NCBI RefSeq assembly: GCF_001660705.2
Contig: NZ_LYBV02000001.1
Coordinates: 186,001-250,000 of the forward strand
DNA length: 64,000 nucleotides
Source of the DNA: Saccharicrinis aurantiacus
Lineage (GTDB): Bacteria; Bacteroidota; Bacteroidia; Bacteroidales; Marinilabiliaceae
Reading direction: 5' to 3'
In this document: one piece after another, positions 16,537-42,331 of the stretch
Layout: each line of letters begins with the position of its first letter
How positions within the stretch are numbered: the stretch's first letter is position 1
Notes under the pieces: generated by a model
Databases searched by the model: none
Seen by the model: only the letters and a program-made list of their open reading frames with translations
What the model was told of the DNA's origin: nothing
Position numbers and translations under genes: made by a program

Positions 16537-16555
16537 TGGAAATTAAATTGTGCTT

Positions 16556-17320
16556 ATGCCTAATTATTATGCGCCCGCTTTAGATAAGGGTTTAGATATC
16601 TTAGAATTCCTTTCAGCTCAGTCAGTTCCGCAATCACAAGTGGAAATCGGAATAGGAATTAATCGTAAACCAAACGAGATATACCGAATGTTGGTGTGCC
16701 TCGAAGATAGGGGATATGTAAATAAGGAGCCTATATCGGGCAAATATCAGTTAACCTTGCGTTTGTTTCAGCTGTCGCACCATCACTCGTCAATCGATAA
16801 ATTGGTAAAAGCCGCCATGCCTTACCTTGAGCAGTTATCGCACACCATTAATCAGTCCTGTCATTTAAGTTTCTTTTATCAAGGAAAACTCTTAATCATT
16901 TGTCAGGCTAAAAGCATGACACCAATTTCTCTGTCTGTTGAGGTGGGAGGGGTGTTTCCCATCACCCAAACCAATTCGGGTAAAATAATATTAGCACACA
17001 AAACACCAGCAGAGCGTAAGCAAATACTTAAGGCTTCCGACGATTATAAAGAATTATCGAAGGAAGAAAAAATACAATTAGAAGAAGAGCTTAAAGAACT
17101 GAAGGATATCAAGTGTTTAATCCGTAAAAGTACCTTAACCGAGGGGGTTACCGATTTTGCTGCGCCTGTATACGATGTAAATAACGATGTAATGGCCGTA
17201 CTTATGGTATCTGGTTTAACCTCGCAGCTTCGTAAATTAGTATCAAACGATACCATTGTTGAAGAGACCTTAAAAACAGTGAAAGCCATACATGTATCTA
17301 TAGGCGGAACGCAAGAGTAA
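16556..17320 (+). CDS. IclR-family transcriptional regulator
   Basis: DNA-binding regulator with an effector-binding domain, usually controlling catabolic genes for sugar acids or aromatic acids. The ATG at 16556 (MPNYYAPALDKGLDILEFL) is preferred over an in-frame GTG two codons upstream. Residues about 5-70 form the winged helix-turn-helix (SQVEIGIGINRKPNEIYRML, DRGYVNKEPISGKYQLT). Residues about 80-250 form the GAF-like ligand domain (QSCHLSFFYQGKLLIICQ, PITQTNSGKIILA, EGVTDFAAPVYD). The length of 254 residues is normal. The known IclR member KdgR controls KDG metabolism. A KduD-like gene lies in the operon starting 4.5 kb away, with a mobile-looking segment in between, so this is the best local candidate for its regulator. 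That link is inference. Confidence 0.9.
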   Translation: MPNYYAPALDKGLDILEFLSAQSVPQSQVEIGIGINRKPNEIYRMLVCLEDRGYVNKEPISGKYQLTLRLFQLSHHHSSIDKLVKAAMPYLEQLSHTINQSCHLSFFYQGKLLIICQAKSMTPISLSVEVGGVFPITQTNSGKIILAHKTPAERKQILKASDDYKELSKEEKIQLEEELKELKDIKCLIRKSTLTEGVTDFAAPVYDVNNDVMAVLMVSGLTSQLRKLVSNDTIVEETLKTVKAIHVSIGGTQE

Positions 17321-21862: not shown

Positions 21863-22309
21863 TTATTTATCCTTTTTATTCGCCAATAATATATGATCAC
21901 AAACCAATACTAGCTCGTCTTTTTGATTGAATACCTCAACGTGTTCGTTTACTTGTCCGAACTCTGGTTTTTTCGATTCTGTTTTTTCAGAAATCGTAAC
22001 CTTTACTCGGATGGTATCGCCAATATGAACCGGCTTAATAAAACGCAAGCGGTCGTATCCTTTAGAGAAAGCCTCAGGATTAATCTCTGTAGCCGTCATG
22101 CCAATAGCCACACTAAAAGTTAATGTGCCATGTGCAATGCGTTGCTTAAAAGGCTGTGTTTTGCACCACTCAGCATCCATGTGGTGTGGAAAAAAATCTC
22201 CCGTTTGACCCGCATGAACAACAAAGTCGGTTTCTGTAATCGTTCTACCAAGAGTCTCTCTAAAATCTCCCAGCGTGTAATCTTCGAAATATTGTGATTT
22301 GATATGCAT
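21863..22309 (-). CDS. MaoC-like hotdog-fold hydratase/dehydratase
   Basis: Small hotdog-fold protein of 148 residues, the usual size for single-domain MaoC/R-hydratase enzymes, which add water to enoyl-CoA thioesters. The active-site segment is GDFFPHHMD (about residues 36-44). It keeps the Asp-x4-His dyad of R-specific enoyl-CoA hydratases but has Phe where DxNPxH normally has Asn. The following [14 protein letters not shown] is the typical helix. [16 protein letters not shown] is the conserved C-terminal strand pair. It is the last gene of the minus-strand operon, 94 bp after the SDR gene. With two CoA-transferases upstream, it probably acts on a CoA thioester in the same pathway. The substrate is unknown. 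Confidence 0.85.
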
Positions 22310-22403: not shown

Positions 22404-23174
22404 TTAGCGCCCCATCCAGCCGCCATCAACAAGCATTACAGCTCCTTGCATGTACGAACCTGCTTCAGAACAAAGGAATACAACTGGTCCTGCAAAATCC
22501 TCAGGCTTACCCCATCTTCCTGCTGGAATACGAGATAAAATTTGCTCAGAACGAACTGGATCCTGACGTAAAGCCTCAGTGTTATCAGTATCGATATAAC
22601 CTGGAGCAATAGCATTTACGTTAACTCCTTTTGAAGCCCACTCGTTGGCAAAAGCCATAGTCATTTGACCAATAGCACCTTTACTAGCTGCATAACCAGG
22701 AACGGTGATTCCACCTTGGAATGTTAATAACGAAGCGGTGAATACAATTTTACCCGATCCACGAGCTACCATTTCTTTACCAATTTCGCGAGTTAAAATA
22801 AATTGTGCATTTTGATTTACCTCAATTACTTTATCCCACATTTCGTCTGGATGCTCAGCAGCTGGGGCTCTTAAAATAGTACCCGCATTGTTTACCAAGA
22901 TATCGATAACCGGATTCTCAGCTTTTACTTCTTTAATAAATGCGTATAAAGATGTACGATCAGAAAAATCGCATGTGTAAGCCGTAAACTTACGACCTAA
23001 AGCAGTTACCGCTTTTTCAACAGCACTACCTGTTTTTTCCAAAGAAGCACTCACACCAATGATATCAGCTCCAGCCTCGGCCAATGCCACGGCCATTCCC
23101 ATACCAATTCCTCTTTTACATCCTGTTACTAAGGCAACTTTACCTTCTACGCTAAATTTATTTAAAATGCTCAT
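22404..23174 (-). CDS. Short-chain dehydrogenase/reductase, KduD-like
   Basis: NAD(P)-dependent oxidoreductase of 256 residues. The cofactor-binding motif is TGCKRGIGMGM (about residues 17-27). NNAG appears at about 93-96. The catalytic Ser lies in TASLLTFQGG and the Tyr/Lys pair in GYAASKGA (about 145-168). The pattern VTGCKRGIGMGMAVALAEAG, then ANEWASKGVNVNAIAPGY, then IPAGRWGKPEDFAGPVVFL and VDGGW closely follows 2-dehydro-3-deoxy-D-gluconate 5-dehydrogenase (KduD). A related keto-sugar acid is therefore the likely substrate class. It is the penultimate operon gene, separated from the alcohol dehydrogenase gene by 451 bp of repeats. Family is certain; exact substrate is not. Confidence 0.9.
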   Translation of the reverse strand: MSILNKFSVEGKVALVTGCKRGIGMGMAVALAEAGADIIGVSASLEKTGSAVEKAVTALGRKFTAYTCDFSDRTSLYAFIKEVKAENPVIDILVNNAGTILRAPAAEHPDEMWDKVIEVNQNAQFILTREIGKEMVARGSGKIVFTASLLTFQGGITVPGYAASKGAIGQMTMAFANEWASKGVNVNAIAPGYIDTDNTEALRQDPVRSEQILSRIPAGRWGKPEDFAGPVVFLCSEAGSYMQGAVMLVDGGWMGR

Positions 23175-23484: not shown

Positions 23485-23715
23485 ATTATTGCGTCATTCC
23501 GAGGAACGAAGGAATCTCAAGGCGCCTTGTAAAAAACATCTTCCCTTGAGATCGCTTCTTGCATCGCGATGACGCAATATCGTTTGTAAATCACTACTAA
23601 CTAATAGCTAAAAACTACTAACTCATTACTGACAATCCACTAAGAACTTCATTCCTGTTGGCGTAGCGTCGATATCTTCGAATAATTGTTGAATTTGATC
23701 CAATGGTTTTGTATC
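23485..23715. repeat. Tandem duplication, copy 2 (overlaps the intact gene end)
   Basis: Second unit of the 231-bp tandem duplication. It begins with the palindromic element at 23487-23578 and runs into the last 90 bp of the functional alcohol dehydrogenase gene. Confidence 0.92.
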
Positions 23716-24639
23716 AGTAATAATACTTTCGAAAGGATATTCGTTTTTAGTAATTAACTCGATTGACTCTTCGTAATCTTCTTTTTCGTATACACGAGCA
23801 CCAACTAATTCAAGCTCTTTCCAAAAGAATTTGAATAAATCGATTGGTTTTTTCTCGCCATGAATGGCAACCATCACAATTCGTCCTCTGATACCAGCCA
23901 CCTCAGTCATTACATCTAATGACGGTTGAACACCTGCCACTTCAAAAACAACATCGGCTAAACCGCCATTTGTTTTCTTTTCAACGTATTCAACTAAATC
24001 TGTTTTCACAGGATTCACTACTTCAAATCCCATTTCTTCGGCCATTTTAATGCGAATTTCGTTCACCTCAGAAATAACAACATTAGCACCTTTGCTTTTT
24101 GCAACCATGGCAACTAATAATCCGATTGGACCACCACCAAGAACAACTGCTGTTTCTCCTTTTTGTAAACGACCTCTGCGCACATCGTGACAAGCAACTG
24201 AAAGCGGCTCAATTAATGCAGCTAATTTAAGATCAGTCTCTTCTTTTAATTTGTGTAAAGTAAAAGCTGGTACATTCCAATATTGCTGCATGGCACCAGG
24301 ACTATCGATACCAATAAACTTTAACGACTTCGCAATATGTCCGTGCCCTTTATCAGAAGCTGTTTCTCCACGATTATCCAAAGGACGAACCGTAATTTTT
24401 TCACCAACTTTATAACCCGTAACACCTTCGCCAATGGCATCAACCGTACCCGACATTTCGTGTCCAATAATTTGTGGAATATCCACACGTTGATCCATCA
24501 TACCATGGTAAATGTGTACATCTGTACCACAAACACCACAATAGGCTACTTTAATTCTTACTTCACCTGCTGCAGGTGCTTCAATTTCTTTTTCGACTAC
24601 TGAGAAGGATTTATTTCCTTCGTACAACGTTGCTTTCAT
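23626..24639 (-). CDS. Medium-chain alcohol/polyol dehydrogenase (MDR superfamily)
   Basis: NAD(P)-dependent dehydrogenase of 337 residues related to threonine and sorbitol dehydrogenases. The catalytic zinc site is intact: Cys in YCGVCGTDVHIY (about residues 33-44) and HE in IIGHEMSGTV (about 61-70). The cofactor-binding motif is VVLGGGPIGLLVAMVAKSKGA (about 165-185). The structural-zinc loop is degenerate: where most relatives have four Cys, this protein reads RPLDNRGETASDKGHGHIAK with none. It follows the Gfo/Idh gene after 256 bp of repeat DNA, and its own 3' end is partly duplicated. It probably oxidises a hydroxyl of the sugar or sugar acid handled by this operon; the substrate is unknown. 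Confidence 0.88.
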   Translation of the reverse strand: MKATLYEGNKSFSVVEKEIEAPAAGEVRIKVAYCGVCGTDVHIYHGMMDQRVDIPQIIGHEMSGTVDAIGEGVTGYKVGEKITVRPLDNRGETASDKGHGHIAKSLKFIGIDSPGAMQQYWNVPAFTLHKLKEETDLKLAALIEPLSVACHDVRRGRLQKGETAVVLGGGPIGLLVAMVAKSKGANVVISEVNEIRIKMAEEMGFEVVNPVKTDLVEYVEKKTNGGLADVVFEVAGVQPSLDVMTEVAGIRGRIVMVAIHGEKKPIDLFKFFWKELELVGARVYEKEDYEESIELITKNEYPFESIITDTKPLDQIQQLFEDIDATPTGMKFLVDCQ

Positions 24640-24895: not shown

Positions 24896-25969
24896 TTAAA
24901 TTGAATCGTATTTTGGAGCAATGCCACCCGCATCGCTCGATGCATAAGCTGCTTCAACAACATGCATGGTATCTAATACATCATCTACCGAAGTGTCTAA
25001 TTTGTCTGTTTCGCCATTTGCGTAGCAAATTAAAGATGACATAGTTCCGATAAATGCATCAGGGAACCACGATCCCTCTAATTTCATTGATTTCCATTCT
25101 GGCTTTTTACCTTCTTCCAAAATGCAATATTCAAAAGCATCAGGCACACCATCAGGATAATTCATCAATAAACCCATTTTTGCATAAATGGCTCCTTTAG
25201 TACCTTCCCACTTCACATAGCTTTCTTGGTGATTGTGACCAAAAATATGATCGTGATTCGTACTTACTAAGGCGCGTACATCATCGCCATACTCCATAAT
25301 AACATTGGTACGTGTTGATGACATCTCTTTGCCAGGATGTTTCAGTGTTTTAGCCATAATTCCTTTAGGGTTACCCAAGAAAGAACGCACTAAATCGATA
25401 TGATGAATACTGTGTTGTTGAATTTCTAAACGTGGGTGATACATTACATTTGGAAATAATTCCCATGGCATATGCACGGTTACCTTTACTTCCATATCGT
25501 AAATCTCGCCAATGGCACCTTGCTTAATTAAATTACGAGCCGCCATAATATATGGAGCAAAACGCAGTTGACAATTAACAGCAGCAATTAGTTTTTTACG
25601 ACGGCAAACTTCAATGATTTCTTTGGTTTGCTCAAAGTAATCGCCCAAAGGCTTTTGAATTAACACCGCTGCTCCATCCGGTAGTTTTTCTAATGTATCA
25701 ACAAACTGATTGGGCATTAATGTTAAGTCGAACACTGCATTTTCAGGAGCTTGAGCAATGGCATCATCGATGCTATCGAATACTCGTGGAATGCCGAATT
25801 TTTCAGCAACTTTCTCAGCTCGCGCTTTGGTTCTGTTGGTGATACCATATACTTCGAAACCTGCCTTTTTGTAGGCTGGCATATGTGCATCGTTTACAAT
25901 ACCTCCGGCACCAAAAATAATAATTGGGCGAGAAGTCTTTGGTAATGTATAGTTATAATTGATTTCCAT
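24896..25969 (-). CDS. Gfo/Idh/MocA-family sugar oxidoreductase
   Basis: NAD(P)-dependent sugar or polyol dehydrogenase of 357 residues, cytoplasmic. The Rossmann motif is FGAGGIVNDAHMPAYKKAG (about residues 19-37). The family EKP-like segment appears as LIQKPLGDYFEQ, with Gln before Lys-Pro where most members have Glu; the catalytic Lys is kept (about residue 106). QQHSIHHIDLVRSFLG (about 185-200) carries the active-site Asp/His. The C-terminal beta-sheet domain is complete. It starts 13 bp after the solute-binding protein gene, inside the tight part of the operon. It probably oxidises the imported sugar or a derivative; the substrate is not visible from sequence. Confidence 0.88.
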   Translation of the reverse strand: MEINYNYTLPKTSRPIIIFGAGGIVNDAHMPAYKKAGFEVYGITNRTKARAEKVAEKFGIPRVFDSIDDAIAQAPENAVFDLTLMPNQFVDTLEKLPDGAAVLIQKPLGDYFEQTKEIIEVCRRKKLIAAVNCQLRFAPYIMAARNLIKQGAIGEIYDMEVKVTVHMPWELFPNVMYHPRLEIQQHSIHHIDLVRSFLGNPKGIMAKTLKHPGKEMSSTRTNVIMEYGDDVRALVSTNHDHIFGHNHQESYVKWEGTKGAIYAKMGLLMNYPDGVPDAFEYCILEEGKKPEWKSMKLEGSWFPDAFIGTMSSLICYANGETDKLDTSVDDVLDTMHVVEAAYASSDAGGIAPKYDSI

Positions 25970-25982
25970 CTCTTTTAATCTT

Positions 25983-27203
25983 TTACAGCTTGTTTACTTT
26001 AGTTTGTGCAGTCTCTAAAATAGACTCAATGGCTTCTTCTGTATTGATTACTTTCAATACCAATTCATCAATAATATCTGCAATTTGCGACCAGTTACCC
26101 ATGCGTGGTAACGATTTTGTATTTTGGTGCAGCTCTTCTAATTTATGATAATAGGGTATCTCGGCATTCACCTTAGGGCTGCGCCATGTTGATACTCTAC
26201 AGCCAATACCTCCTTCGAGGGTTAACAACTCATCGTTTTGAGCCGAAGTAGCGAATTTAATAAAATCATAGGCTACTTGCTGCTTTTTACTTCCGGCGCC
26301 AATCACATACATCCAATAGGCATTTAAGGAAACGCCTTCGCCGCCTTCGCCTGCAGGGATATAGGCAACATCAACTTTACCTTTTACTTGAGAATTGGCA
26401 TTCACTTCGCAGTTGGCAGCAAAACCAAACCAGTTTACACACATGGCTAACTCGCCAGCAGCAAAGGCCAATCCGGCTTTTACAGAATCGAAATCGCGCG
26501 AAGCAGGATGTATAGCATCTGTATTCTGAAGTGCTTTGCGGTAGAAATTCATACCTGCTACAGCTGCTTCTGAATTTAAGATTACCTTTTTATCATCGGT
26601 AATTAATTGGCCACCGCGTGTCCAAAGCTGCAGACAAAAATCAAATACCGTATTGTGTCCGTCAGGATAGGCAGCAAACGTAGTTCCGTATAAATTATCT
26701 TCAGGACGGTTAAAGAAAGTGGCTACTTCCATTAAATCGTCCCAAGTTTTTGGCAATTCTAATTCACGACCATATTGTGCCTTAAAAGCTTCTTTTTCTT
26801 TGGGATCGTTAATTAAATCTTTACGATAAATTAAGCACTCAGGGCCATTGTGAAATGGCAAGCCCATAAAGGCATTATCAAAACTTTGTTTGCCCAACAT
26901 AGAGTTACTCCATGCTTCTGTATCAATAGAAGAATCATTATTGATAAACGGAACAAGATCGAGAATAGCATTGGAGCTATATGCCTCAGTAATCCAATCG
27001 GTATTGATTAAGGCAATATCCCATTCTCCATTTTTAAGGCCATCATTTTTTAAAGTGCTATCGTATAAAGGATGTAAATCCATTGGGATAGCTTCCAACT
27101 CTAAGTCGCAGTTATTCAGCTTGCAGAAGTCGGCCCATATTTTATCTATAGCACTCTCAAAAGGACCGAATTTACGAACGGCAATTCTTAATTTTTCCTT
27201 CAT
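25983..27203 (-). CDS. Leaderless ABC-type solute-binding protein (paralogue 2)
   Basis: A 406-residue family-1-type extracellular solute-binding fold (EWDIALINTDWITEAYSSNAILDLVPFI, LPFHNGPECLIYRKDLI, LPKTWDDLMEVATFF, GELAMCVNWFGFAANCE, AYDFIKFATSAQ). Unlike transported relatives it has no signal peptide and no lipobox. It starts MKEKLRIAVRKFGPF, right at the first beta-strand, and the previous stop codon is 12 bp upstream, so no longer start can be missed. No permease or ATPase gene lies in the operon. It should therefore be cytoplasmic, and may bind a pathway intermediate or act with the CoA-transferases. That role is inference; the lack of a leader is seen directly. Confidence 0.85.
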   Translation of the reverse strand: MKEKLRIAVRKFGPFESAIDKIWADFCKLNNCDLELEAIPMDLHPLYDSTLKNDGLKNGEWDIALINTDWITEAYSSNAILDLVPFINNDSSIDTEAWSNSMLGKQSFDNAFMGLPFHNGPECLIYRKDLINDPKEKEAFKAQYGRELELPKTWDDLMEVATFFNRPEDNLYGTTFAAYPDGHNTVFDFCLQLWTRGGQLITDDKKVILNSEAAVAGMNFYRKALQNTDAIHPASRDFDSVKAGLAFAAGELAMCVNWFGFAANCEVNANSQVKGKVDVAYIPAGEGGEGVSLNAYWMYVIGAGSKKQQVAYDFIKFATSAQNDELLTLEGGIGCRVSTWRSPKVNAEIPYYHKLEELHQNTKSLPRMGNWSQIADIIDELVLKVINTEEAIESILETAQTKVNKL

Positions 27204-27214
27204 TGTTTACTAGC

Positions 27215-28351
27215 TTATAGTTCGCTTAAAATTTTTGCTGTGTGCTCACCAATTGAAGGAGAACCAAGTGATGAAGTTAAATACTCTCCATCTATTTTAA
27301 TAGGACAGCGTGTGGTTTGATACTCGAAACCATCGCCCATTTTCACATTCTGAATCATCTGCAATGCCTTGAAGCCATCGTGAGCAAAAAGCTTGTCCCA
27401 ACTCAATACATCAGCACACCAAATATCAGCAGGCTCAAGAATAGATAGCCAATGCTCAGTACTTTGTGCTTGAAGATGTTTTGCTAGAATATCTTTAATC
27501 TCATCACGCTGCGTAAACCAACTATCAGGCTCAGGATACTCCGTTAAAGCTTTGCAACTTAATAATTCTCCTAAAACAGGAATAGCACCCATGGCTAAAG
27601 CCAGATGACCATTCTGTGTTTCGTAAACACCATAAGGTGCACCAAGGTAAGCGTGTGCATTATTACTAGCGGTACGCACAGTAGGCTCTCCGCCATCATG
27701 GTAATAGGTAGTGATGGTTTCAAATTGGAAATCGAGAATAGATTCCAACATACTTACAGAAACTTTGCTTCCTGTATTGCTTTTAATGCGTTTCACTAAA
27801 GCAGCTAAAATACCTTGCGCTAAGTGCGAACCTGCTAAAATATCAGCAATGGCAATTCCCATAGGTACTGGACCTTTATCGGCATTTCCGCTTAACCAAG
27901 TAACTCCCGAAAGTGATTGTAATAATAAATCCTGACCTGGTTTTTTTGCCCAAGGACCTTCTGATCCGTAACCAGAAATCTCACCATAAACAATAGAGGG
28001 GTTGATGGCTTTAACAGTATCGTAATCCAAGCCTAATCGCTCAATTACTCCCGGACGGAAGTTGTGCACTAGCACATCTGCTTTAGCAATAAGCTTGAGT
28101 ACTTTATTTTTATCGTCTTCAGTTTTTAAATCTGCTTGAAAACTTTCCTTGTTTCTATTAATCGCTCTGAATACTGAAGACTCGCCGTTGAGCATTACGT
28201 TAGAAACGTATAGCTGACGACAGATGTCACCTGTTTCGGGGCGTTCAACTTTAATTACTCTGGCACCTAAATCGGCTAAGCGTAAAGTAGCTGAAGGAGC
28301 AGACAAAAACTGGCTTAAATCAACTACAAGTATATCTTTTAATGGTAGCAT
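27215..28351 (-). CDS. Type III CoA-transferase (CaiB/BaiF family), second copy
   Basis: Enzyme of 378 residues that moves CoA between carboxylic acids. It starts [36 protein letters not shown], the classical CaiB/BaiF N-terminus. [15 protein letters not shown] (about 70-84), [18 protein letters not shown] (about 94-111) and [24 protein letters not shown] (about 121-144) follow. The catalytic Asp is Asp170 in [10 protein letters not shown]. It is close to the upstream paralogue (both share HNFRPGV and KPGQDLL) and 10 bp downstream of it. The pair may form a heteromer or act on two acids. The acid substrate is unknown. Confidence 0.92.
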
Positions 28352-28361
28352 ATCTTTGTCT

Positions 28362-29510
28362 CTACAGGTTAAACTCTTTAGTTATGGCATCCGTATCCTG
28401 TCCTACACGCGGTGCAGGTTTTGGTGCAAATATTTTTTCATCGTTTAAACGGATAGGGCAACGTGTGGTGTGAATTTGCTCACCCGTATCTAAACTCAAT
28501 TTCTGATCCATTTGCAATACTTTGTAAGCTTCGTGGTTTAACAGTTGTTCGTAATCGAATACTGCCGAAGACCAAATGCCTGCAGGTTCAAAAATATCAA
28601 GCCACTCTTGCGTTGTTTTGGTTGAAAGTATGTCTCGTAATATGGCCATAATCTCATCGCGTTTGGTAAAGGTTTCAGCCTCGCTATATCCTTTAAGTTC
28701 GTCTGCATTTAATAGTTCGACTAAAGTATCGAATGAACCCATGGCCAATGAAATATGACTATCCTTTGTTGCATAAACTCCGTATGGTGCGCTTAAGTAG
28801 GCGTGGCCTGAACCTTGAGCAGCTCTTTCAGGAAGTTTATTTCCATCGTTGAGGTAGGTTGTAATTACCTCAAATTGGAAATCGAGCATGGACTCCAGCA
28901 GGCTTACTTCAACCATGGCACCTTTTTGTGTTTTAGCACAGCGCAATAACGCGGCTAAAATACCATGCACCATATGAGAGCCTGTTACGATATCGGCAAC
29001 AGCCAATCCGAATGGAGTAGGGCCATCTTCTTTATCGCCACTTAGGTTAGCCAAGCCCGACATGCATTGCACTAATAAATCCTGACCAGGCTTTGCCGAC
29101 CAAGGACCTACAGTACCATAACCAGTTACTGTGGCATAAACTAATTTAGGATTAATAGCCTTTACAGTATCATAATCTAAACCAATTTTCTCCATTACAC
29201 CAGGGCGGAAATTGTGCGTCATCACATCCGCTCTAGCGATCAGTGCTTTTACTCTTTCTAAATCATCCGCATCCTTAAGGTTAGCTGCGTATGATTCTTT
29301 ATTTCTGTTTAAGGTATGAAATACCAAGCTGCTGCCATCAACCCTAAGGTTTTTAATGGCGATTTGGCGGCCAGCCTCACCGTGGTTTGGTCGCTCAATT
29401 TTAATTACACGAGCTCCTAAATCCGCCAAACGAAGTCCGGCAGATGGTCCTGCCAAAAATTGGCAGAACTCAAGTACCAACATACCCTCTAAAGGTTTTG
29501 CATTACTCAT
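28362..29510 (-). CDS. Type III CoA-transferase (CaiB/BaiF family), first copy
   Basis: Paralogue of the next gene, 382 residues, with the same motifs: [75 protein letters not shown]. The catalytic Asp is Asp173 in [10 protein letters not shown]. Its start overlaps the end of the upstream solute-binding protein gene by 8 bp, so the two are probably translationally coupled. Family III CoA-transferases use an enzyme-bound aspartyl-CoA intermediate. Two tandem copies next to two binding proteins point to two related steps or a hetero-oligomer. Which acid is activated cannot be told. Confidence 0.92.
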
Positions 29511-30660
29511 TTTCCGAAAGGGATTTGATGTATAACTCGTTTAATTGTTTCAGTAATTGTTTAGGATCGCCACCATTCATCATGTATTCACGGATAGGCG
29601 CACCCGCTCTATCTTGGAAGTACATATGTCCGTTGTATCGTGGACGTAAAAAAGCACGATCTAAAGCAGGTAAAGTATCTGAAAAGAAATTCATACACTG
29701 GCTGTTTACTCTTTCGTCAGTCCAAGCTTTTCTATGTCCAGGTTGTCCACCATTATCAAAGAAAATTCCTTTTTGTACCTCTAAAGAACCTGCGTACTCT
29801 AAGAATTTAGCTGCTATTTCTTTTTCTTCACATTTAGATGAAAGTGCTAAACCTGTTCCTCCTAAAGTACTGATTAGTTTTTGATTGTTAATAGCAACCA
29901 TATCATGATACTTTAAGGTAACACGTGCATATCCTTCGCGAGAATAATTGGTGTATCCATATCCAAACGGCGCGTAAATATAATCGTCAGTTAAAGTCAT
30001 GGCTTCACAAACCTTAATTGGGTTCCAATCATAACTTTCTGGTTTGATATTCTCTCCTAAATCGCGTAGCATTTGTAACGCTTTTAGGCCTGTTTCGTCA
30101 GATACTACGTAATCTTTAGTTTCGCATACATTCTCACCTAAAGTAGAACATACCATATAAAAACTCATTAAAGTATCCTGAGGAATACCAGGGATGGCTA
30201 CTTTACCTGTTTTTGAAAGTTCAACTAAATCGTCCCAAGTTTCAGGGAATTTAAGTCCTTCTTTTTGGAATAAATCTGGACGACTAGAGGCAACCGGTGT
30301 AGCAGCATCTACAGCCAATGCCCATTGGTGATTGTTAAAAGAATAACTCTCGTGAGAACGCCCAACAGAATTCTCCGCTAAATCTGTCATTAAGTCTTTA
30401 GATAGAATTGTATCCAAAGGCATAATCACTTGCGTTCGAGCTGCAAAACCTGCCCATGGGTGATCAATAATTAAGAAATCGTAACGCTCAGCCAGTTGAT
30501 CGATAGGCTCATCAGCGAAAGCTTGTAATGATCTTTTCTCCCATGAAATTTGAACACCTGGGTTTAGTTCTTCAAAACGTTGCGATACAGCAACAATTGA
30601 AGTAAATCCACGACTATGGTTCCAAGTAATTCCTTTTAATTTTTTAATATCAGTGCTCAT
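29503..30660 (-). CDS. Leaderless ABC-type solute-binding protein (paralogue 1)
   Basis: A 385-residue solute-binding fold related to family-1 extracellular binding proteins ([119 protein letters not shown]). The N-terminus [13 protein letters not shown] has no hydrophobic leader or Cys lipobox, so the protein should stay in the cytoplasm. It is divergent in sequence from the second copy (25983-27203). It overlaps the first CoA-transferase gene by 8 bp. No ABC permease is encoded here. It starts 126 bp after the RhaT-like transporter stop. Confidence 0.85.
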
Positions 30661-30786: not shown

Positions 30787-31860
30787 TTAGTGCCCAATAG
30801 CCTCAGTGCCCATGCTACTTCCGTAGGTCATAATTAAGAATGATGAAATTAAGACAGCCAAGGCAAAAACTAGTGTTCGGTAAGTTCGTTTAGAAACCTG
30901 CGACCATTCTTTCATTACAATACCTAGTATGTAGCTAAAGAATATTAGCATTGACATGTGGATAACCCAACTAGCGAACTTAAATCCGCCCATGCGTACG
31001 TGTGCCATGTTGTAAAAGAAAAATTGTCCGTACCAAAGTGCACCACTGATTATTGACATAAACATGTTAAGTCCTATTGTTTTACCACCAAGACCTTTTA
31101 CATCAACTATTTCTTTTAATGTTTTTTGTTTTATGCCAACCACAACAAACCAAATTAAGTTTGTAGCAAATGCACCCATAGTTGAAAGCATTAAGTTGGC
31201 ATTTCCTTCAAAATGGCCAGCACCATGTTTTCCTGCTATTTCTGCAATTGGAGCACCTACCTCTAGCGAGATGCCAAACACAGCAGATAATACACCCGCA
31301 ATTAAAGTAAGGGTAAAACCTTTTTTCATATTGAAAGAAGATTTTTCACCTGACTCTTTATTTAATTCGGTAAGATCTTTTTCTTTTCTATATCCGGCTA
31401 CACCGCATAAGCTAATTCCTATTAAGGAGATTAGCATTCCTAGATAGATAATATTGCCACCTGGTTCATGAAATTTAGAGATAAGTTCACCGTGCATAAT
31501 TAAGGGAACGATAGTTCCGAGGATGGCTGAAATACCAATTGAAATAGTATAGGTTAAAGAGTATCCAATATGTTTAATGGCATAACCAAAACACATGCCC
31601 CCAAATCCATAAATAGAACCCAACAAAAATGCTTTTACAATTAAATCGAATGGCGATTCAGCAAATACCTCCCATAAATTGGGTACAGTTATATACCCGA
31701 CAATTAATGGAAAAATTAACCAAGCAAAAGTAGCTTGAACCAACCAATAAGAATTCCAATTCCATTGTTTTACTTTCTGAAATGGTACGTAACAAGTAGA
31801 GGCCGAAACACCACCTACAGCATGTAATAAAGTACCCATTAATGGATTTTGTTGTATCAT
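30787..31860 (-). CDS. rhaT: RhaT-family sugar-proton symporter
   Basis: Inner-membrane transporter of 357 residues with about ten hydrophobic segments, matching the L-rhamnose-proton symporter family (GTLLHAVGGVSASTCYVPFQKVKQWNWNSYWLVQATFAWLIFP; GSIYGFGGMCFGYAIKHIGYSLTYTISIGISAILGTIVP; SGALWYGQFFFYNMAHVRMG). Related transporters in Bacteroidota import L-rhamnose or other sugars. No rhamnose isomerase, kinase or aldolase gene lies here, so another deoxy or modified sugar is possible. It is the first gene of the minus-strand operon and divergent from the Asp-box propeller and GH2 genes. It thus supplies the uptake step for whatever those exported proteins release. Confidence 0.9.
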   Translation of the reverse strand: MIQQNPLMGTLLHAVGGVSASTCYVPFQKVKQWNWNSYWLVQATFAWLIFPLIVGYITVPNLWEVFAESPFDLIVKAFLLGSIYGFGGMCFGYAIKHIGYSLTYTISIGISAILGTIVPLIMHGELISKFHEPGGNIIYLGMLISLIGISLCGVAGYRKEKDLTELNKESGEKSSFNMKKGFTLTLIAGVLSAVFGISLEVGAPIAEIAGKHGAGHFEGNANLMLSTMGAFATNLIWFVVVGIKQKTLKEIVDVKGLGGKTIGLNMFMSIISGALWYGQFFFYNMAHVRMGGFKFASWVIHMSMLIFFSYILGIVMKEWSQVSKRTYRTLVFALAVLISSFLIMTYGSSMGTEAIGH

Positions 31861-32156: not shown

Positions 32157-32175
32157 TATTCACCCTTTGTGAATA
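32157..32175. promoter_or_regulatory. Second palindrome TATTCAC-5-GTGAATA
   Basis: Exact 7-bp arms with a 5-bp spacer, 30 bp upstream of the propeller-gene start codon. It could be a second operator or an mRNA leader hairpin. Confidence 0.4.
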
Positions 32176-32204
32176 CCTCATTACAAAAAATTAAAAGTGA
32201 TTAT

Positions 32205-35099
32205 ATGCAAAAAATCTACAAGCTATTTATTTACATCTTTTGTATAAGTTCGGTAGTTGGAGTTAAAGCCCAAATGGACCAGGATTATTTTGATAAATTA
32301 CAAACGGAGCGAATAGAATCAAGTGATGTAATTGAGTGGACCCAATTTGGTCCTGGAATGTCTGGTTATTGCGAGGAGTTTTGGTGCCATCCTACAGATG
32401 AAAATGTGATGTTTCAGTCGCCAGATATGTACAATAGTTATGGTACCTGGGATAATGGAGTATCGTGGCAAACTATAAAAGATGAGGATGGAAATGGAAA
32501 AGATATGCGTCGTATTCAGGCGATAACTTTTTCGCACCAGGATGCTAATTTTGGATTAGCAATTGATGTTAGAGGGCATCTATATAAATCTACCGATCAA
32601 GGTAGAAATTGGAATTTAGTAAGTGATAATTTTGGAGGAAAGCATTCTGAATTAGCCGTTGACCCAAGTAATGATAATATTTGGTATATGGGTGCGGGTA
32701 ATTTCTGGAATGTGAAATCTAATCATCGTAGTCAAGAAAGTTTTGATGATCCGACAACGGGTTACTTTTATGACTATGCAGAGTATGGTCATATTTATAA
32801 AAGTACTAACAAGGGCCAAGATTGGATTAAGGTCACAAGTGTATTTCCTGCTAAAACCGAATTTGGGAAAATAATTGTTGACCCAAGGAATTCTGATGTA
32901 GTTATTGCAGTTACTAATTATGGAATTTACCGTAGTTCAAATCAAGGTATTGATTGGGCATTGAGTATAGAAGGTTTACCGCATCATTTGGCGCGAGATA
33001 TGGATTACTACTACAACGCCAGTGATGATGAATTTATATTGTACTGTATCCTTCAAACTAAATATGAGGCTGACGGATCATCAGTAAAAAGTTCGGGAGG
33101 CGTATACAAAAGTACAGATGGGGGTGTTAATTGGATTAGCGCAACAGGAAATCTTAATCATGATTTGATTAGTATTACCGACTGGTCCTCGCGCGATAAA
33201 TACTATAATACTATCACCTATTGGTTTGGTATTACAGAAGATGAGGCACTAGCTGCATATCCAGATTACCCGAGTGAAATATTACCTGTTTTTAATCGTA
33301 TTGTTGTAAATCCAATTGATAAAAATGAAGTGTATTTAGGCAAGAATGTAAAACATGATAAATCATTCGGAGCAAGCGATGTGTGGAAAACGAGTGATGG
33401 CGGAAGTACTTGGAAACCATCGGCACGTACAGGTACTTATTGGGATAGTGATAAAGATGAGACTTATTGGTCTGATAGAAATGTTGGGAAAACAACAAAT
33501 ACAAAATTTGCTCATCTGCAACGTGTTGTAGATCATGAAACAGAGACTTACGGTAATCGTTTTCTCACGATTAACAGCGTAGGTGATGTTTTTATATGCT
33601 TGGATCAGCAAGTATTACGTACCAATAATAATGGAGAATCGTGGGAGCAAGTTGATGATTTTGAAACCTATGATGGAAGCACAGCATGGGTTGGCCGTGG
33701 AGCAAGTAACCTGCCAGGTAGGTTTATGCTTTTACAAACGGGTATTGATGGACGCTATTTTTTCTGTTCAGGGGAGCATGGTCTTTGGCAATCAGCACCA
33801 TTGGAAGGTTACCCCGATAAAAGAGCCATTCCTGTTACTCAAATTGAAGGCCAAAATGTTGATGGCGGAGCAACTTCCATTGCTGCAGTTGCTGTTAATC
33901 CGAAGAATTCAGATGAGGTTTCCATCCTTATGTTTCGCCAAGATCATAGTGGATATTATCGCAAATCAACAGATGGTGGAAAAACATGGGCTAATATTTC
34001 TAAACCTATTGATTGGGTTGGAAATGTATCTGGGGATATGATGTTTCAAAACTCTTTAATGATTGATTATAATGATCCGGATAATATTTATTTTACGCAA
34101 CCTGAGAATGCGATTACTGATGTAAGTAAAGATAATGTGCCAGATGATTACGAAAACTTTGGAGTGTACAGAAGCACGGATAGTGGAGCAACGTGGACTA
34201 GACCGAATACTGGATTTCCGTCAAATTGTAGTGTGCATCGATTAATTATGCATCCAGAGAATCCTGAAATCTTGTATGCTGCTTTAAACGAAAGTAAAAC
34301 GGGCGTTGCTGGCGGTTTATATAAATCAACTAACAAAGGTGATAATTGGGCAAAGTTGTCTATCCCATCGCAAATAGTTGCGGTTAATAATGTGTTTATG
34401 GATGGAAAATCCAAAGACTTATTTATCTCTTGTGGTAGAGAAGAAGGATCTATCTCAGAAGGCGGTGTTTGGAAGAGTACCGATGATGGCTCTACGTGGA
34501 CAAAAATATTTGAAATGCCTTGGGTTTGGCAAGCAGAAGTATCGCCTGTAAATTCAGATATTATAACAGTTTGTGTTGCTTTGCCACACGAAAATAAAGG
34601 GGCTTCTAATTTTAATCCAGGCCTTTATGTTTCTTTTGATGGCGGTGATACTTGGGAAAAAGTAAATCAGAATATTGGTCAGCCCGATACTGTGGTGGAC
34701 TTTAAACCTGATCCAAAGGATGAAAATATATTTTGGTGTGCGCTTAAGGGAAGCGGATGGGCTGTTGGTTACCATAAGGATTATACAGGAAGTGGTTGGG
34801 CTCCTGAAGAAGAAGAAATCAGTAATTCTGTATCGGAGTCTAGTTTTGAAAAGAGTATTGTTATTTTTCCAAATCCGGTTAACGATATATGTAATTTAAG
34901 TTTTGGGATAAGTAAATCAAGTAATGTTTCTATCAGTGTCTATGATGTTATGGGCTCAAAAACGCTAAGCTTCGAATATCGAAATGTAATAAATGCAAAT
35001 GAACTAGCGTTTTCAACTAAGGATTTGGCTACTGGGTTTTATTTTATCTCAATTGTAATTGATGATACAATGTATACTAAGCAATTTTTAAAACAATAA
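32205..35099 (+). CDS. Secreted Asp-box (BNR) beta-propeller protein with T9SS tail
   Basis: Large extracellular protein of 964 residues. The ATG at 32205 is chosen because it starts a signal peptide (MQKIYKLFIYIFCISSVVGVKA); an upstream GTG adds a polar extension. The body carries about eleven Asp-box motifs of the S-x-D-x-G-x-x-W type (KSTDQGRNW, KSTDGGVNW, KTSDGGSTW, KSTDGGKTW, RSTDSGATW, VSFDGGDTW and others). This architecture resembles sortilin/GH74-like double propellers. The C-terminus (IVIFPNPVND, LATGFYFISIVI) is a T9SS sorting domain. It may bind or cleave a glycan, but I see no residues that fix an enzyme class. It ends 9 bp before the GH2 gene, so the two form an operon. Confidence 0.8.
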   Translation: MQKIYKLFIYIFCISSVVGVKAQMDQDYFDKLQTERIESSDVIEWTQFGPGMSGYCEEFWCHPTDENVMFQSPDMYNSYGTWDNGVSWQTIKDEDGNGKDMRRIQAITFSHQDANFGLAIDVRGHLYKSTDQGRNWNLVSDNFGGKHSELAVDPSNDNIWYMGAGNFWNVKSNHRSQESFDDPTTGYFYDYAEYGHIYKSTNKGQDWIKVTSVFPAKTEFGKIIVDPRNSDVVIAVTNYGIYRSSNQGIDWALSIEGLPHHLARDMDYYYNASDDEFILYCILQTKYEADGSSVKSSGGVYKSTDGGVNWISATGNLNHDLISITDWSSRDKYYNTITYWFGITEDEALAAYPDYPSEILPVFNRIVVNPIDKNEVYLGKNVKHDKSFGASDVWKTSDGGSTWKPSARTGTYWDSDKDETYWSDRNVGKTTNTKFAHLQRVVDHETETYGNRFLTINSVGDVFICLDQQVLRTNNNGESWEQVDDFETYDGSTAWVGRGASNLPGRFMLLQTGIDGRYFFCSGEHGLWQSAPLEGYPDKRAIPVTQIEGQNVDGGATSIAAVAVNPKNSDEVSILMFRQDHSGYYRKSTDGGKTWANISKPIDWVGNVSGDMMFQNSLMIDYNDPDNIYFTQPENAITDVSKDNVPDDYENFGVYRSTDSGATWTRPNTGFPSNCSVHRLIMHPENPEILYAALNESKTGVAGGLYKSTNKGDNWAKLSIPSQIVAVNNVFMDGKSKDLFISCGREEGSISEGGVWKSTDDGSTWTKIFEMPWVWQAEVSPVNSDIITVCVALPHENKGASNFNPGLYVSFDGGDTWEKVNQNIGQPDTVVDFKPDPKDENIFWCALKGSGWAVGYHKDYTGSGWAPEEEEISNSVSESSFEKSIVIFPNPVNDICNLSFGISKSSNVSISVYDVMGSKTLSFEYRNVINANELAFSTKDLATGFYFISIVIDDTMYTKQFLKQ

Positions 35100-35108
35100 A
35101 TAAATCTA

Positions 35109-37565
35109 ATGAACAACAAATTTTTAATTCTAATGAGTTTGGTGTTGTGCGTGTGCTTAAATAGTTTTGCGCAAAACATCAATTTTAACGACTCGTGGCG
35201 TTTCTTCAACGATAAGGCTGAAGGAGCAGAAAAACCACAATTTGATGATTCGAAATGGAGAAGCCTTGATTTGCCGCACGATTGGGCAATTGAAGGACCA
35301 TTCGATATTAAATACAATGCCCGTAGTGGCGGTTTACCATTTCATGGTACAGGATGGTATCGTAAAACTTTTAAAACGCCAGAAGGTGCAAAGGGAAAAG
35401 TAATTCGTTTAGAGTTTGAAGGGGCTATGTACGATGCTCATGTATGGGTAAATGGTACTTTCGTAGGTAATCGTCCGTATGGATATATAGGTTTCGAATT
35501 TGATATTAGCAAGCACTTAAAGTACGACGGTAGCGATAATGTGGTGTCTGTACGTTTAGAGCCTAAAGATTTATCATCGCGTTGGTATCCGGGTGCAGGT
35601 ATTTACCGTTCGATTTGGTTAAAGGTTGATGCGCCAGTACATGTAGCACAATGGGGTACTTTTATTACTACACCAACGGTTAGTAATGCAAAAGCAGTAG
35701 TACAAAACGAGACTACCATTAATAACAAAAGCAATAAGGATGCAGTTATAGAGGTAACTCAAGAGTATTTCTCTCCTGAAGGGAAATCGGTAGCAACGGT
35801 TAGTGAGAAATTAACCATTAAAGCCAATGCATCGGCCGTATCTGGCTTATGGTGTAATATCGAGAATCCGGCAAAATGGGATTTAGATACGCCCAACTTA
35901 TACAATGCCGTAACAACTGTTAAACAGGATGGTAAAGTTGTAGATACTTACAAAACGCGTTTTGGTATTCGCACCATCCATTACGATAAGGACGGCTTTT
36001 ATTTAAATGGTCGTAAAGTTCGTTTTAATGGCGTTTGTTTGCATCATGATAATGGAGCTTTAGGAACGGCTACATACAGAAGAGCCGATCAGCGTAAGCT
36101 TCAAATTATGAAAGATATGGGTGTGAATGCCATTCGTACCAGTCATAATATGCCATCGCGTGAGTTATTAGAACTTTGTGACGAATTGGGTTTAATGGTT
36201 CAGGATGAGGCTTTCGATGTTTGGAAAATGGAGAAAGTAGAGAACGGCTACAACGTGTTTTTTGAAGAGTGGGCTGAGCGCGATATCAAAGATATGGTAC
36301 TTCGCGATAGAAACCATGCTTCAGTTGTAATGTGGAGTATTGGTAACGAAATTATTGAGCAAAAGGATAAGAAGAATGGTTGGAAAACAGCGAAAATGCT
36401 GAACGACTACGTAAAGGAGTTAGATTTAACACGTCCTACTACAGCTGGCTTTAATCATTACGATGCGCCATATAAGCACAACATGGCTCAGCAAGTTGAT
36501 ATTGCAGGAGTAAATTACAAGCCTACTAAATATGGTGAGCTTCGTGAGAATTATCCTGATATGCCATTGTATGGTTCAGAGACTTCCAGCTGTACAAGTA
36601 GCCGTGGTGTGTATCACTTCCCAGTAGAGAAGTATAAAATTGCCGATGACAACCAAGTTACGAGTTACGATATTGTTGGTCCGCCATGGGCATATCCACC
36701 AGATATTGAATTCCACTTTCAAAAAGAATTTGAGTTTAGTATGGGTGAGTTTATCTGGACAGGTTTTGATTACCTAGGTGAGCCAACGCCATACGGAGGT
36801 AGAGATAACTCAACCAACGGATATTGGAACGATAACTGGCCATCGCGTAGTTCTTATTTCGGGGCAGTTGACCTTTGTGGATTCCCTAAAGATCGTTTCT
36901 TCTTATACCAAAGTCAGTGGACTACAAAGCCAATGGTTCACCTATTGCCGCATTGGAATTGGAAAGGCATGGAAGGTAAAACTATCCCAGTATACTGTTA
37001 TACCAATTGCGACGAGGCTGAGTTATTTGTGAACGGAAAGTCGATGGGTAAAAAAGTAAAAGGAAAAGACCTAAGTACTGTATTGGTCGATTTCTTACGT
37101 TACGAATCTAAAACATTCGATTCGCCATACCGCTTATCGTGGGATGTTCCTTACCAAGCAGGATCTATTAAAGTGGTAGCTTATAAAGATGGCAAAGCTA
37201 TTTTAGAAGAGCAGGTTAATACTGCAGGTGCACCAGCTAAAATTAGCCTATCTGTTGATCGCGAAAGCATTGATGCTTCAGGTGAAGATTTGGCTTACGT
37301 AACTGTGCGTGTTGAAGATAAAGATGGTAACCTTTGTCCGAATGCAGATAACCTAGTCAACTTTAAAGTAAAAGGAGCTGGTAGTTTAGTGGCTGTTGAT
37401 AATGGTAATGCTGCTTCGTTAGAGTCATTTCAGGCACCGTATCGTAAGGCATTTAACGGCATGGCACTAGCAGTATTAAAATCAACTAAATCATCGGGTA
37501 CTATTCAACTAGTAGCAAGTGGTAAAGGTTTAAAATCAGCAAAAGTTGTGGTAACCACAAAATAG
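35109..37565 (+). CDS. Secreted GH2 glycoside hydrolase (beta-galactosidase type)
   Basis: Exo-acting glycosidase of 818 residues with a signal peptide (MNNKFLILMSLVLCVCLNSFA). Domains in order: jelly-roll sugar-binding (about 25-190; LPHDWAIEGPF, WYRKTF, WVNG), Ig-like (about 195-290), TIM barrel (about 295-590), a DUF4982-like domain (about 610-700) and a C-terminal Ig-like invasin-type domain. The acid/base is Glu414 in WSIGNEI and the nucleophile is Glu491 in YGSETSS. The motif NGVCLHHDNGALG is typical of Bacteroidota GH2. Most such proteins are beta-galactosidases, but beta-glucuronidase and beta-mannosidase activities also occur in GH2. It probably releases the sugar imported by the divergent RhaT-family transporter. 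Confidence 0.93.
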   Translation: MNNKFLILMSLVLCVCLNSFAQNINFNDSWRFFNDKAEGAEKPQFDDSKWRSLDLPHDWAIEGPFDIKYNARSGGLPFHGTGWYRKTFKTPEGAKGKVIRLEFEGAMYDAHVWVNGTFVGNRPYGYIGFEFDISKHLKYDGSDNVVSVRLEPKDLSSRWYPGAGIYRSIWLKVDAPVHVAQWGTFITTPTVSNAKAVVQNETTINNKSNKDAVIEVTQEYFSPEGKSVATVSEKLTIKANASAVSGLWCNIENPAKWDLDTPNLYNAVTTVKQDGKVVDTYKTRFGIRTIHYDKDGFYLNGRKVRFNGVCLHHDNGALGTATYRRADQRKLQIMKDMGVNAIRTSHNMPSRELLELCDELGLMVQDEAFDVWKMEKVENGYNVFFEEWAERDIKDMVLRDRNHASVVMWSIGNEIIEQKDKKNGWKTAKMLNDYVKELDLTRPTTAGFNHYDAPYKHNMAQQVDIAGVNYKPTKYGELRENYPDMPLYGSETSSCTSSRGVYHFPVEKYKIADDNQVTSYDIVGPPWAYPPDIEFHFQKEFEFSMGEFIWTGFDYLGEPTPYGGRDNSTNGYWNDNWPSRSSYFGAVDLCGFPKDRFFLYQSQWTTKPMVHLLPHWNWKGMEGKTIPVYCYTNCDEAELFVNGKSMGKKVKGKDLSTVLVDFLRYESKTFDSPYRLSWDVPYQAGSIKVVAYKDGKAILEEQVNTAGAPAKISLSVDRESIDASGEDLAYVTVRVEDKDGNLCPNADNLVNFKVKGAGSLVAVDNGNAASLESFQAPYRKAFNGMALAVLKSTKSSGTIQLVASGKGLKSAKVVVTTK

Positions 37566-37630
37566 AATAAATTGATTATACTGCATCACACAAGATCTGT
37601 GGTGGAGTTTTACTGACTATCATATTAAAG

Positions 37631-37664
37631 AAGCATCTTCATTTATTTTGAAGGTGCTTTTTTG
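37631..37664 (+). terminator. Terminator after the GH2 gene
   Basis: AAGCATCTTCA pairs with TGAAGGTGCTT-like sequence (one mismatch) around an A/T loop, then a T tract. It lies 65 bp after the stop codon. Confidence 0.75.
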
Positions 37665-38057
37665 TTTATTACCTATTCAAGCATATCATTTGGCGGTCGG
37701 TGGTGCTTTGTGCATATAGGCAAGGCTACCTTTATTCGTTTTTTTAGCAATGTCTATTTTATTTAATTTGTACTATTAACACTTGTTTAATGTGTTTTTA
37801 TCGATTTTAGATGTTAACAATCTTTCAATAACACGCATCTATATTGTCATTTATCTATTGTACTATAATTTCTTAGTGCAGTTGTTTACTCCATTAGGAT
37901 TACTTAAATATTTAATAATTGTTAAAAAACCATTATAAGTATATATAAGTAACCGTAGAATTGATCTTAATTATAATAATAGCATAAGGTTAATTTTAAG
38001 TTGAAGTGCAATACATCGCGTTTATTTGCCATCGTTAATTAAGATGAAGAAAGATAA
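37665..38057. other. AT-rich intergenic region upstream of the TonB receptor gene
   Basis: These 393 bp contain no gene. Just before the receptor start, a five-codon frame ATG-AAG-AAA-GAT-AAA-TGA overlaps the receptor ATG by its stop codon. Its AAGAAAG may simply act as a purine-rich ribosome site. No PHO-box-like or other known operator was recognised. Confidence 0.45.
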
Positions 38058-40859: not shown

Positions 40860-40883
40860 ATAAAATCAATTAATTAAACTAAA

Positions 40884-42272: not shown

Positions 42273-42294
42273 TCATTTGTAAAAACAATATTTT

Positions 42295-42324
42295 AGCGGC
42301 CCTTTTATGGGTCGCTTTTTTTTT
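42295..42324 (+). terminator. Terminator-like hairpin inside the phytase gene cluster
   Basis: AGCGGCCC pairs with GGGTCGCT (one mismatch) around TTTTAT, followed by a run of T residues. It sits between the beta-helix lipoprotein and the next lipoprotein, only 8 bp before the latter's start. Partial read-through would lower phytase expression relative to the receptor. Confidence 0.75.
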
Positions 42325-42331
42325 CAAGAAA

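Follow-up and report, generated by a model that had tools for sequence, protein, structure and literature searches.

Class III coenzyme A (CoA)-transferases act in the CaiB/CaiD carnitine system and in FldA-type CoA-recycling dehydration, and BbsEF is a heteromeric enzyme of this class. Solute-binding proteins (SBPs) of this transport type normally capture sugars outside the cell, and a precedent for the SBP fold working inside it is given by the enzymes MqnA/MqnD and THI5/NMT1. The oxidative pathway of L-fucose and L-rhamnose, to our knowledge, needs no CoA, CoA-transferase or cytosolic SBP. Here we describe a gene cluster of Saccharicrinis aurantiacus (contig NZ_LYBV02000001.1, positions 186,001 to 250,000, a stretch of 64,000 nucleotides hereafter called the window) in which two leaderless proteins of SBP fold, SBP2 and SBP1, enclose two class III CoA-transferases, CTB and CTA. 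Leaderless SBPs beside CoA-transferases or acid-processing enzymes are real and widespread, occurring in many bacteria and at least one archaeon. Two transport-type SBP families now sit in the cytosol as neighbours, and most likely as partners, of sugar-acid-catabolising enzymes, SBP2 chiefly of class III CoA-transferases and SBP1 of a Gfo/Idh oxidoreductase. We found no description of the SBP/CoA-transferase pairing in the open-access literature, which leaves out most subscription journals.

The cluster reads in one direction, in the order RhaT symporter, SBP2, CTB, CTA, SBP1, Gfo/Idh oxidoreductase, zinc-dependent alcohol dehydrogenase (Zn-ADH), short-chain dehydrogenase/reductase (SDR) and MaoC. 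SBP2 and CTB overlap by 8 bp, and CTB and CTA, and CTA and SBP1, are separated by 10 and 11 bp, respectively, all on the minus strand; the coordinates thus confirm the packed SBP-CoA-transferase-CoA-transferase-SBP order reported in a preliminary description of the locus. That description had confined the unit to the four genes at 25983-30660, which are real, but in doing so left out the RhaT gene upstream and the Gfo/Idh, Zn-ADH, SDR and MaoC genes downstream. In Pfam, SBP1 and SBP2 each match SBP_bac_1 and SBP_bac_8, SBP1 being of a different family from SBP2, and CoA_transf_3 covers CTA and CTB almost end to end. Neither the list of open reading frames (ORFs) nor Pfam showed a permease or ATPase adjoining the SBP genes in the window.

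To place the cluster among its relatives, the GTDB contig collection was scanned with an SBP2 alignment, which matched 550 stretches, 531 of them SBP2 relatives; locus counts out of 80 refer to the best 80 of these 531, ranked by closeness to the query. Downstream of SBP2, 79 of the 80 loci carried one or more CoA-transferases (as the next gene in 76, past a small ORF in one and as a CTB-CTA fusion in two), and two separate CoA-transferase genes were present in 76 loci and fused in 2 further. Two forms were distinguished. Form I (35/80) contains SBP1, with Gfo/Idh directly next in 35 of 35, MaoC or a second such gene, MaoC2, in 25 and RhaT in 30. Form II (45/80) has SBP2 without SBP1, together with an enoyl-CoA hydratase in 44 loci and an aldehyde dehydrogenase in 41. 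Over both forms, the RhaT family occurred in 30 loci, directly upstream of SBP2 and on its strand in 28, the Zn-ADH family in 14, the KduD-like SDR family in 15 and an IclR-family gene in 54, on the strand opposite to SBP2 in all 54. The exact SBP2-CTB-CTA-SBP1 order was found in 28 loci, with MaoC2 between the CoA-transferases in 5 and a fusion in 2; of the four-gene arrangement in the preliminary description, the pairing is conserved (79/80), the full order is restricted to 28 loci and 45 lack SBP1. Since the best 80 were picked by closeness to the query, we also used random draws. Among 395 drawn Bacteroidota genomes, SBP2 was present in 19 (E 1e-40) and SBP1 in 13 (E 1e-60), all 13 among the 19, and in 17 of the 18 drawn genomes that remain when our own is excluded a CoA-transferase gene lay next to SBP2 in the same orientation, the aligned ends being no more than 97 bp apart. 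Since the order recurs both in the best 80 relatives and in random draws, the arrangement is more than chance.

The two SBPs had been described as full-length proteins that start at the first beta strand, with no leader or lipobox. Both are full length, and because the modelled first strand comprises residues 4-10 in SBP1 and 6-13 in SBP2, both do start there. Little room is left upstream, the open frames being 407 codons for SBP1 (room for one more codon) and 400 codons for SBP2 (room for 15). At 80 SBP2 and 35 SBP1 loci a start codon was present only a few codons from where the family begins, and no strongly hydrophobic stretch occurred in the in-frame room upstream. N-termini were also scored by the mean hydropathy of any 10-residue window within the first 40 residues, a cruder measure than SignalP, and were considered signal-like at 2.2 or above. 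No SBP reached this value (0/81 SBP2, 0/36 SBP1), the maxima being 1.89 for SBP2 and 1.41 for SBP1. The threshold is a generous one, since it was passed by 21 of 41 GH2 proteins as well as by 13 of 36 proteins of the Gfo/Idh family, the latter probably due to their first Rossmann strand, and still no SBP did. Median cysteine content was 1.30% in SBP2 and 1.46% in SBP1, compared with 0.84-1.62% in the cluster enzymes and 0.60%, about half the SBP values, in the 181 proteins from these loci whose N-termini are signal-like. Beyond the Bacteroidota, all 18 listed sequences, including that of the haloarchaeon Halostagnicola, were leaderless by eye, and the signals of ordinary ABC (ATP-binding cassette)-operon SBPs in alphaproteobacterial loci were visible by eye. 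On in-frame extension, hydropathy and cysteine content, we reject an overlooked export signal. The reading of the SBP1 and SBP2 families as intracellular and repurposed is now well grounded.

The proteins could instead leave the cytosol by a route that needs no classical signal and still act beyond the inner membrane, feeding the RhaT symporter or an unlinked transporter, as the RhaT-family gene directly upstream of SBP2 (28/80) and the fold shared with transport SBPs might suggest. We consider this very improbable, since no member examined has a signal, cysteine content is cytosol-like and the ordinary SBPs of such loci show their signals readily; moreover, where loci of Roseibium and Ensifer include an ABC sugar transporter, they encode, apart from SBP2, another SBP that is exported. 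Our own genome (5.88 Mb in 69 contigs) was also searched for permeases. PF00528 yielded two, of nitrate type (below its cut-off) and molybdate type, and PF02653 yielded the urea-type pair UrtB/UrtC; no sugar-type ABC permease was found with these two families, other permease families not having been searched. A dedicated ABC permease elsewhere in the genome is accordingly rejected as far as PF00528 and PF02653 reach. The preliminary description had named an export signal, a dedicated permease and an unconserved pairing as observations that would count against it, and none of the three was made.

The same genome holds a second copy of each SBP, and both copies begin without a leader. The second SBP2, on contig C5, is 72% identical to the first and has two CoA-transferases downstream and an enoyl-CoA hydratase and aldehyde dehydrogenase upstream, while the second SBP1, on contig C19 (L003:8297-11720), is 62% identical, directly follows an alpha-L-fucosidase gene and precedes a MaoC-type gene of 167 aa. 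It is scarcely credible that the SBP genes of the cluster are hitch-hikers, i.e., decayed or neutral copies of ABC SBPs that lost signal and permeases and were kept in the operon by chance. SBP1 does show distant similarity (25.5%) to the ABC SBP found at the corresponding kind of locus in Ensifer, as such an origin would have it, but the SBPs form two separate families with strong conservation in each (mean column identity of 72% over 52 sequences and 76% over 33 sequences), and the leaderless state is found also in a haloarchaeon, Streptomyces and proteobacteria.

Outside the Bacteroidota the tie to CoA-transferases is looser, SBP2 lying beside one in the majority of the loci read, though not in all. 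In 289 genomes from the class of Hirschia, SBP2 was present in 6, including the centre genome; in the other five a CoA-transferase adjoined SBP2 in two, and MR/MLE genes lay nearby instead in three (one overlapping SBP2 at a contig end, one with an IclR gene between and one 1.2 kb away). The expectation that leaderless SBPs always accompany CoA-transferases thus held in 17 of 18 drawn Bacteroidota and in only two of five alphaproteobacteria. In a plasmid collection, SBP2 matched 145 records at 1e-20 and the same number at 1e-15, so the family is sharply bounded among plasmids. Thirteen plasmid records with SBP2 were read, two of them from S. meliloti strains, and a same-strand CoA-transferase adjoined in 11. 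In Streptomyces ITFR-6 the CoA-transferase is 2.7 kb from SBP2, and in Microvirga a mannonate dehydratase gene overlaps SBP2. A plasmid of Halostagnicola larsenii (L134:7323-10680) carries a leaderless SBP1 homologue beside an AMP-binding gene of acyl-CoA-ligase type and MaoC, and here CoA activation may be performed by a ligase. On a linear Streptomyces plasmid (L145:6861-9146), SBP2 lies beside IS3 transposase genes, a sign of horizontal spread, with a CoA-transferase, MaoC and a 2,4-didehydro-3-deoxy-rhamnonate hydrolase (FAH) nearby. The CoA-transferase frame on pSymB of S. meliloti 1021 (L132:7827-8903) has 358 codons vs. 388 in strain ABS7 (L133:7835-9001), and the gene may be shortened in strain 1021.

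The enzymes of the cluster keep their motif residues. The Asp of the 'G.AvsDi' block, which we take to be the catalytic Asp of class III CoA-transferases, is kept at a level of at least 97% in 78 CTB and 78 CTA relatives, and the same level is reached by the D-x-x-P-x-H block of MaoC (23 relatives) and by both Glu positions of the enoyl-CoA hydratases (n = 50), presumably the catalytic residues of these enzymes. As judged from sequence, the chemistry points to activation of a carboxylate on CoA, followed by addition or removal of water. In two Hymenobacter loci (L123:11308-13692 and L124:11284-13665) CTB and CTA are fused in single ORFs of 794 and 793 aa, a natural hint that both CoA-transferases act as one unit. 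MaoC2 (167 aa in L092), which is distinct from MaoC, lies between CTB and CTA in some flavobacteria (L068, L076, L092, L097 and L108).

Neighbouring genes point to catabolism of a (6-deoxy)sugar acid, a reading that draws on gene content. In locus L176, an L-fucose dehydrogenase (354.6 bits, cut-off 300) and FucP (TIGR00885, 365.3 bits, cut-off 280.4) were accompanied by matches to L-fuconolactonase and FAH, both below their cut-offs, and in genome G222 genes for FucP and L-fucose dehydrogenase, scoring above the curated cut-offs, flank the module together with those for a lactonase and FAH, a 2,4-diketo-3-deoxy-acid hydrolase, which score below theirs. Genome G214 carries on one strand, in succession, RhaM-like, MaoC-like, SBP2, CTB, CTA, lactonase-like, RhaT-like, Gfo/Idh-like, second MaoC-like, SDR-like and FAH-like genes, and the Roseibium, Ensifer, Thalassospira and Halostagnicola loci have genes for rhamnose mutarotase, Gfo/Idh, MaoC and amidohydrolase. 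FAH was present in 15 of 19 SBP2 genomes vs. 68 of 395 overall (Fisher test by genome, 1.9e-9), and by genus in 7 of 10 vs. 31 of 161 (p 0.001). Six of the loci read have SBP2 but no CoA-transferase in reach: three with MR/MLE genes, that of Microvirga with mannonate dehydratase, L078 and G286. Since four of these six have a gene of sugar-acid-dehydratase type close by, SBP2 seems to be tied to the sugar acid and not to the CoA-transferase as such.

AlphaFold2 models of the SBPs (predicted local distance difference test 92.9 for SBP2 and 88.7 for SBP1) resemble sugar SBPs, the best solved structures giving template-modelling (TM) scores of about 0.83-0.86. The closest solved folds are SmoF and MalE3 for SBP2 (TM about 0.83) and MalE3 and TMBP for SBP1, and ligand-bound MalE3 fits better than open MalE3 (TM 0.83 vs. 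0.76 for SBP2, 0.84 vs. 0.71 for SBP1). Across 40 SBP2 sequences from Bacteroidota, alpha- and gammaproteobacteria and Streptomyces, 26 positions are invariant, including the polar residues R17, D66, D118, Q306, R339 and Q349, and H15, H67 and R341 are nearly so. A profile alignment places T269 and R339 of SBP2 at Trp276 and Arg345 of SmoF, which we take to contact the sugar. At the Trp276 position, SBP2 has Thr in 37 and Ala in 3 of 40 sequences, all 3 Ala-bearing proteins coming from loci without a CoA-transferase, and SBP1 has Trp in 32 of 33. The lost stacking Trp would suit an acyclic ligand in SBP2, and the kept Trp a ring in SBP1. These invariant positions could also mean that SBP2, and perhaps SBP1, has turned into an enzyme whose cleft is an active site, e.g., for lactone opening, epimerisation or dehydration of the sugar acid alongside the CoA-transferase step, in the manner of MqnA/MqnD and THI5. 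This is the main rival explanation, a possible one though on balance improbable. The SBP genes do keep company with enzyme genes, and in members of three phyla they overlap the gene of a CoA-transferase or a dehydratase, but a site for one fixed ligand would show similar conservation, the fold is that of sugar SBPs and no catalytic motif was recognised, though no search for one was made.

The most economical reading is that SBP2 is a cytosolic partner or holder of an acyclic sugar acid at the acid-processing step and that SBP1 serves the Gfo/Idh step, and we regard it as evenly poised between right and wrong. The cluster would then be an intracellular catabolic unit for a (6-deoxy)sugar acid, in which the sugar would enter through the RhaT-type symporter and be oxidised by Gfo/Idh, ADH and SDR. 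CTB and CTA, probably as a heteromer, would load the resulting carboxylate on CoA for hydration or dehydration by MaoC or, in the other form of the locus, by the enoyl-CoA hydratase. SBP2 would capture the acyclic acid in its two-lobe cleft in the cytosol and either pass it on to the CoA-transferase or keep it in place for that enzyme; at some loci where no CoA-transferase is present, SBP2 would work for a dehydratase of the enolase superfamily or a mannonate dehydratase. SBP1, with its stacking Trp kept and the Gfo/Idh gene directly next in all 35 of the 80 loci that have SBP1, would do likewise for the oxidation step. The ligands, a physical complex, the hand-over and the exact step are what we infer from these data. 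Of the preliminary suggestion that the SBPs were repurposed for an intracellular job, the leaderless, conserved and enzyme-linked state is upheld, and the job may be that of a holder, an enzyme or a sensor.

A more specific version of the partner reading, unlikely when taken as a whole, is that an SBP2-CTB-CTA complex loads an aldonate on CoA, MaoC or the enoyl-CoA hydratase dehydrates the thioester and CoA passes from the product to the next substrate, with SBP2 and SBP1 as cytosolic substrate clamps. Here SBP2 would grip the acyclic polyol chain during thioester formation, stopping the 4-hydroxyl from expelling CoA by lactone closure, and SBP1 would present the ring sugar to the Gfo/Idh enzyme. 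Blocking lactone closure in this way would account for the need for a binding protein besides the enzyme. Alternatively, the SBPs could be cytosolic sensors or buffers, reporting a metabolite to the IclR regulator or keeping a reactive intermediate low. Periplasmic-binding-protein folds serve as effector domains in other regulators, and an IclR-family gene is present in 54 of the 80 loci. However, an output domain is lacking, as the open frames of SBP2 have the size of one domain (up to 447 codons among the drawn alphaproteobacteria), and the tight gene coupling is to enzymes, with the IclR gene on the opposite strand throughout; we therefore think such a role quite unlikely.

Several observations weigh against the partner reading. 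CTA and CTB reach no NCBIfam equivalog cut-off, scoring 77.4 and 81 bits against L-carnitine CoA-transferase (NF002914, cut-off 413). The SBP1 copy on C19 stands alone, with neither a Gfo/Idh gene nor a CoA-transferase of the cluster kind in the 20 kb read. In locus L078, SBP2 is accompanied by a hydratase and an aldehyde dehydrogenase but not by a CoA-transferase, and in genome G286 (L166:1977-10045) it lies without one beside L-rhamnose isomerase and bifunctional rhamnulose-1-phosphate aldolase, the CoA-transferases and SBP1 of that genome being about 60 kb away. No MaoC or enoyl-CoA hydratase was seen in the stretch read at 9 of the 80 loci, 4 of which were shorter than 17.3 kb. Our own genome has no FAH orthologue at E 1e-60, so its route must differ downstream and end otherwise. 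The step served is also at issue where FAH and aldonate dehydratases are concerned. Positions of UxaA (PF04295) and MR_MLE (PF13378) genes were taken from 55 of the 68 FAH genomes, with 61 FAH genes, and from 4 SBP2 genomes without FAH; MR_MLE matches were used to 7e-50, and most of the weaker ones among the matches listed (to about 2e-31) added none within 12 kb of FAH. Within 12 kb of the module lay 8 FAH genes, none with UxaA nearby and one with MR_MLE nearby, the latter in a galactonate-dehydratase/AraD1-type cluster; among the 53 FAH genes elsewhere, 22 had UxaA and 6 had MR_MLE nearby (p 0.04 for UxaA and 0.055 for either). Counting against this contrast, 7 of the 8 module-near genes are from one genus, neither kind of dehydratase is linked to 25 of the 53 others, and the CoA-transferase module occurs together with an MR/MLE or UxaA gene in Ensifer, Roseibium, Ponticoccus and two drawn alphaproteobacteria. 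At the level of the family, MR_MLE was uninformative, some member being present in 59 of 59 genomes. The idea that the module simply replaces fuconate or rhamnonate dehydratase is thus favoured by a weak leaning subject to genus bias, and because several alphaproteobacterial loci hold both, the module is not a simple replacement of the aldonate dehydratase. We retain the idea solely within the more specific version of the partner reading.

Genes of the cluster and its possible regulator in the window, with the database matches obtained for each
Feature	Coordinates	Strand	Match
RhaT-family sugar-proton symporter, first gene of the cluster	30787..31860	-	Pfam RhaT 4.4e-52
SBP2, leaderless solute-binding-protein-fold protein, 385 aa	29503..30660	-	SBP_bac_1 5.1e-15
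CTB, class III (CaiB/BaiF) CoA-transferase, 382 aa	28362..29510	-	CoA_transf_3 5.2e-99
CTA, second class III CoA-transferase, 378 aa	27215..28351	-	CoA_transf_3 1.1e-95
SBP1, second leaderless solute-binding-protein-fold protein, 406 aa	25983..27203	-	SBP_bac_1 2.4e-24
Gfo/Idh/MocA oxidoreductase, 13 bp past SBP1	24896..25969	-	Pfam GFO_IDH_MocA 6.4e-11
Zn-dependent alcohol dehydrogenase family protein	23626..24639	-	Pfam ADH_zinc_N, ADH_N
SDR dehydrogenase, KduD-like	22404..23174	-	TIGR01832 325.7 bits, just under cut-off 338.85
MaoC-type hydratase/dehydratase	21863..22309	-	Pfam MaoC_dehydratas 8.5e-23
IclR-family regulator, possible cluster regulator	16550..17320	+	Pfam IclR_C 1.7e-23

The best NCBIfam score of the RhaT-family gene was 302 bits, under its cut-off of 468, and a tie of the IclR-family gene to the SBP cluster as its regulator is possible. 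Promoter and terminator scans gave results no better than shuffles. Divergent from the cluster, the plus-strand run at 32169-50025 encodes a protein that is rich in repeats and looks secreted, a beta-galactosidase of family GH2 (GalB above cut-off) and proteins judged by eye to resemble TonB-dependent receptors; it may be a polysaccharide locus that feeds the SBP cluster.

SBP2-type genes on plasmids are annotated as 'extracellular' solute-binding proteins or as ABC transporter substrate-binding proteins, annotations that probably misstate both where the proteins reside and what they do. Should the partner role hold, it would be a new intracellular use of the SBP fold and would imply an unrecognised, CoA-dependent branch of (deoxy)sugar catabolism that extends over marine Bacteroidota, Streptomyces, proteobacteria (rhizobia among them) and, in the case of SBP1, a haloarchaeon. 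If the clamp version is also true, transport binding proteins might have a general use as cytosolic substrate clamps.

Compared with MqnA/MqnD and THI5/NMT1, SBP1 and SBP2 belong to different SBP classes. They share the Pfam family SBP_bac_1 and the two-lobe fold with the SBPs of sugar ABC transporters (SmoF, MalE3 and TMBP), but differ from them in having no signal, no permease or ATPase partner found in our own genome and a context of enzyme genes; SBP2 further differs from SmoF in carrying Thr or Ala in place of Trp276. In some genomes the surroundings of the module share with the L-fucose/L-rhamnose 2,4-diketo-3-deoxy acid pathway a fucose dehydrogenase and lactonase-, FAH-, SDR-, FucP- and RhaM-like genes, whereas our own genome departs from that pathway in lacking FAH (E 1e-60). 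With the CaiB/CaiD and FldA-type systems the cluster has in common a class III CoA-transferase and a crotonase or MaoC hydratase in one cluster, and it is set apart from them by its sugar-pathway neighbours, its two CoA-transferases and its SBP partner. Finally, CTB and CTA resemble BbsEF in being two tandem CaiB-family genes, fused in the two Hymenobacter loci; unlike BbsEF, both keep the motif Asp, and their neighbours are those of sugar, not aromatic, metabolism.

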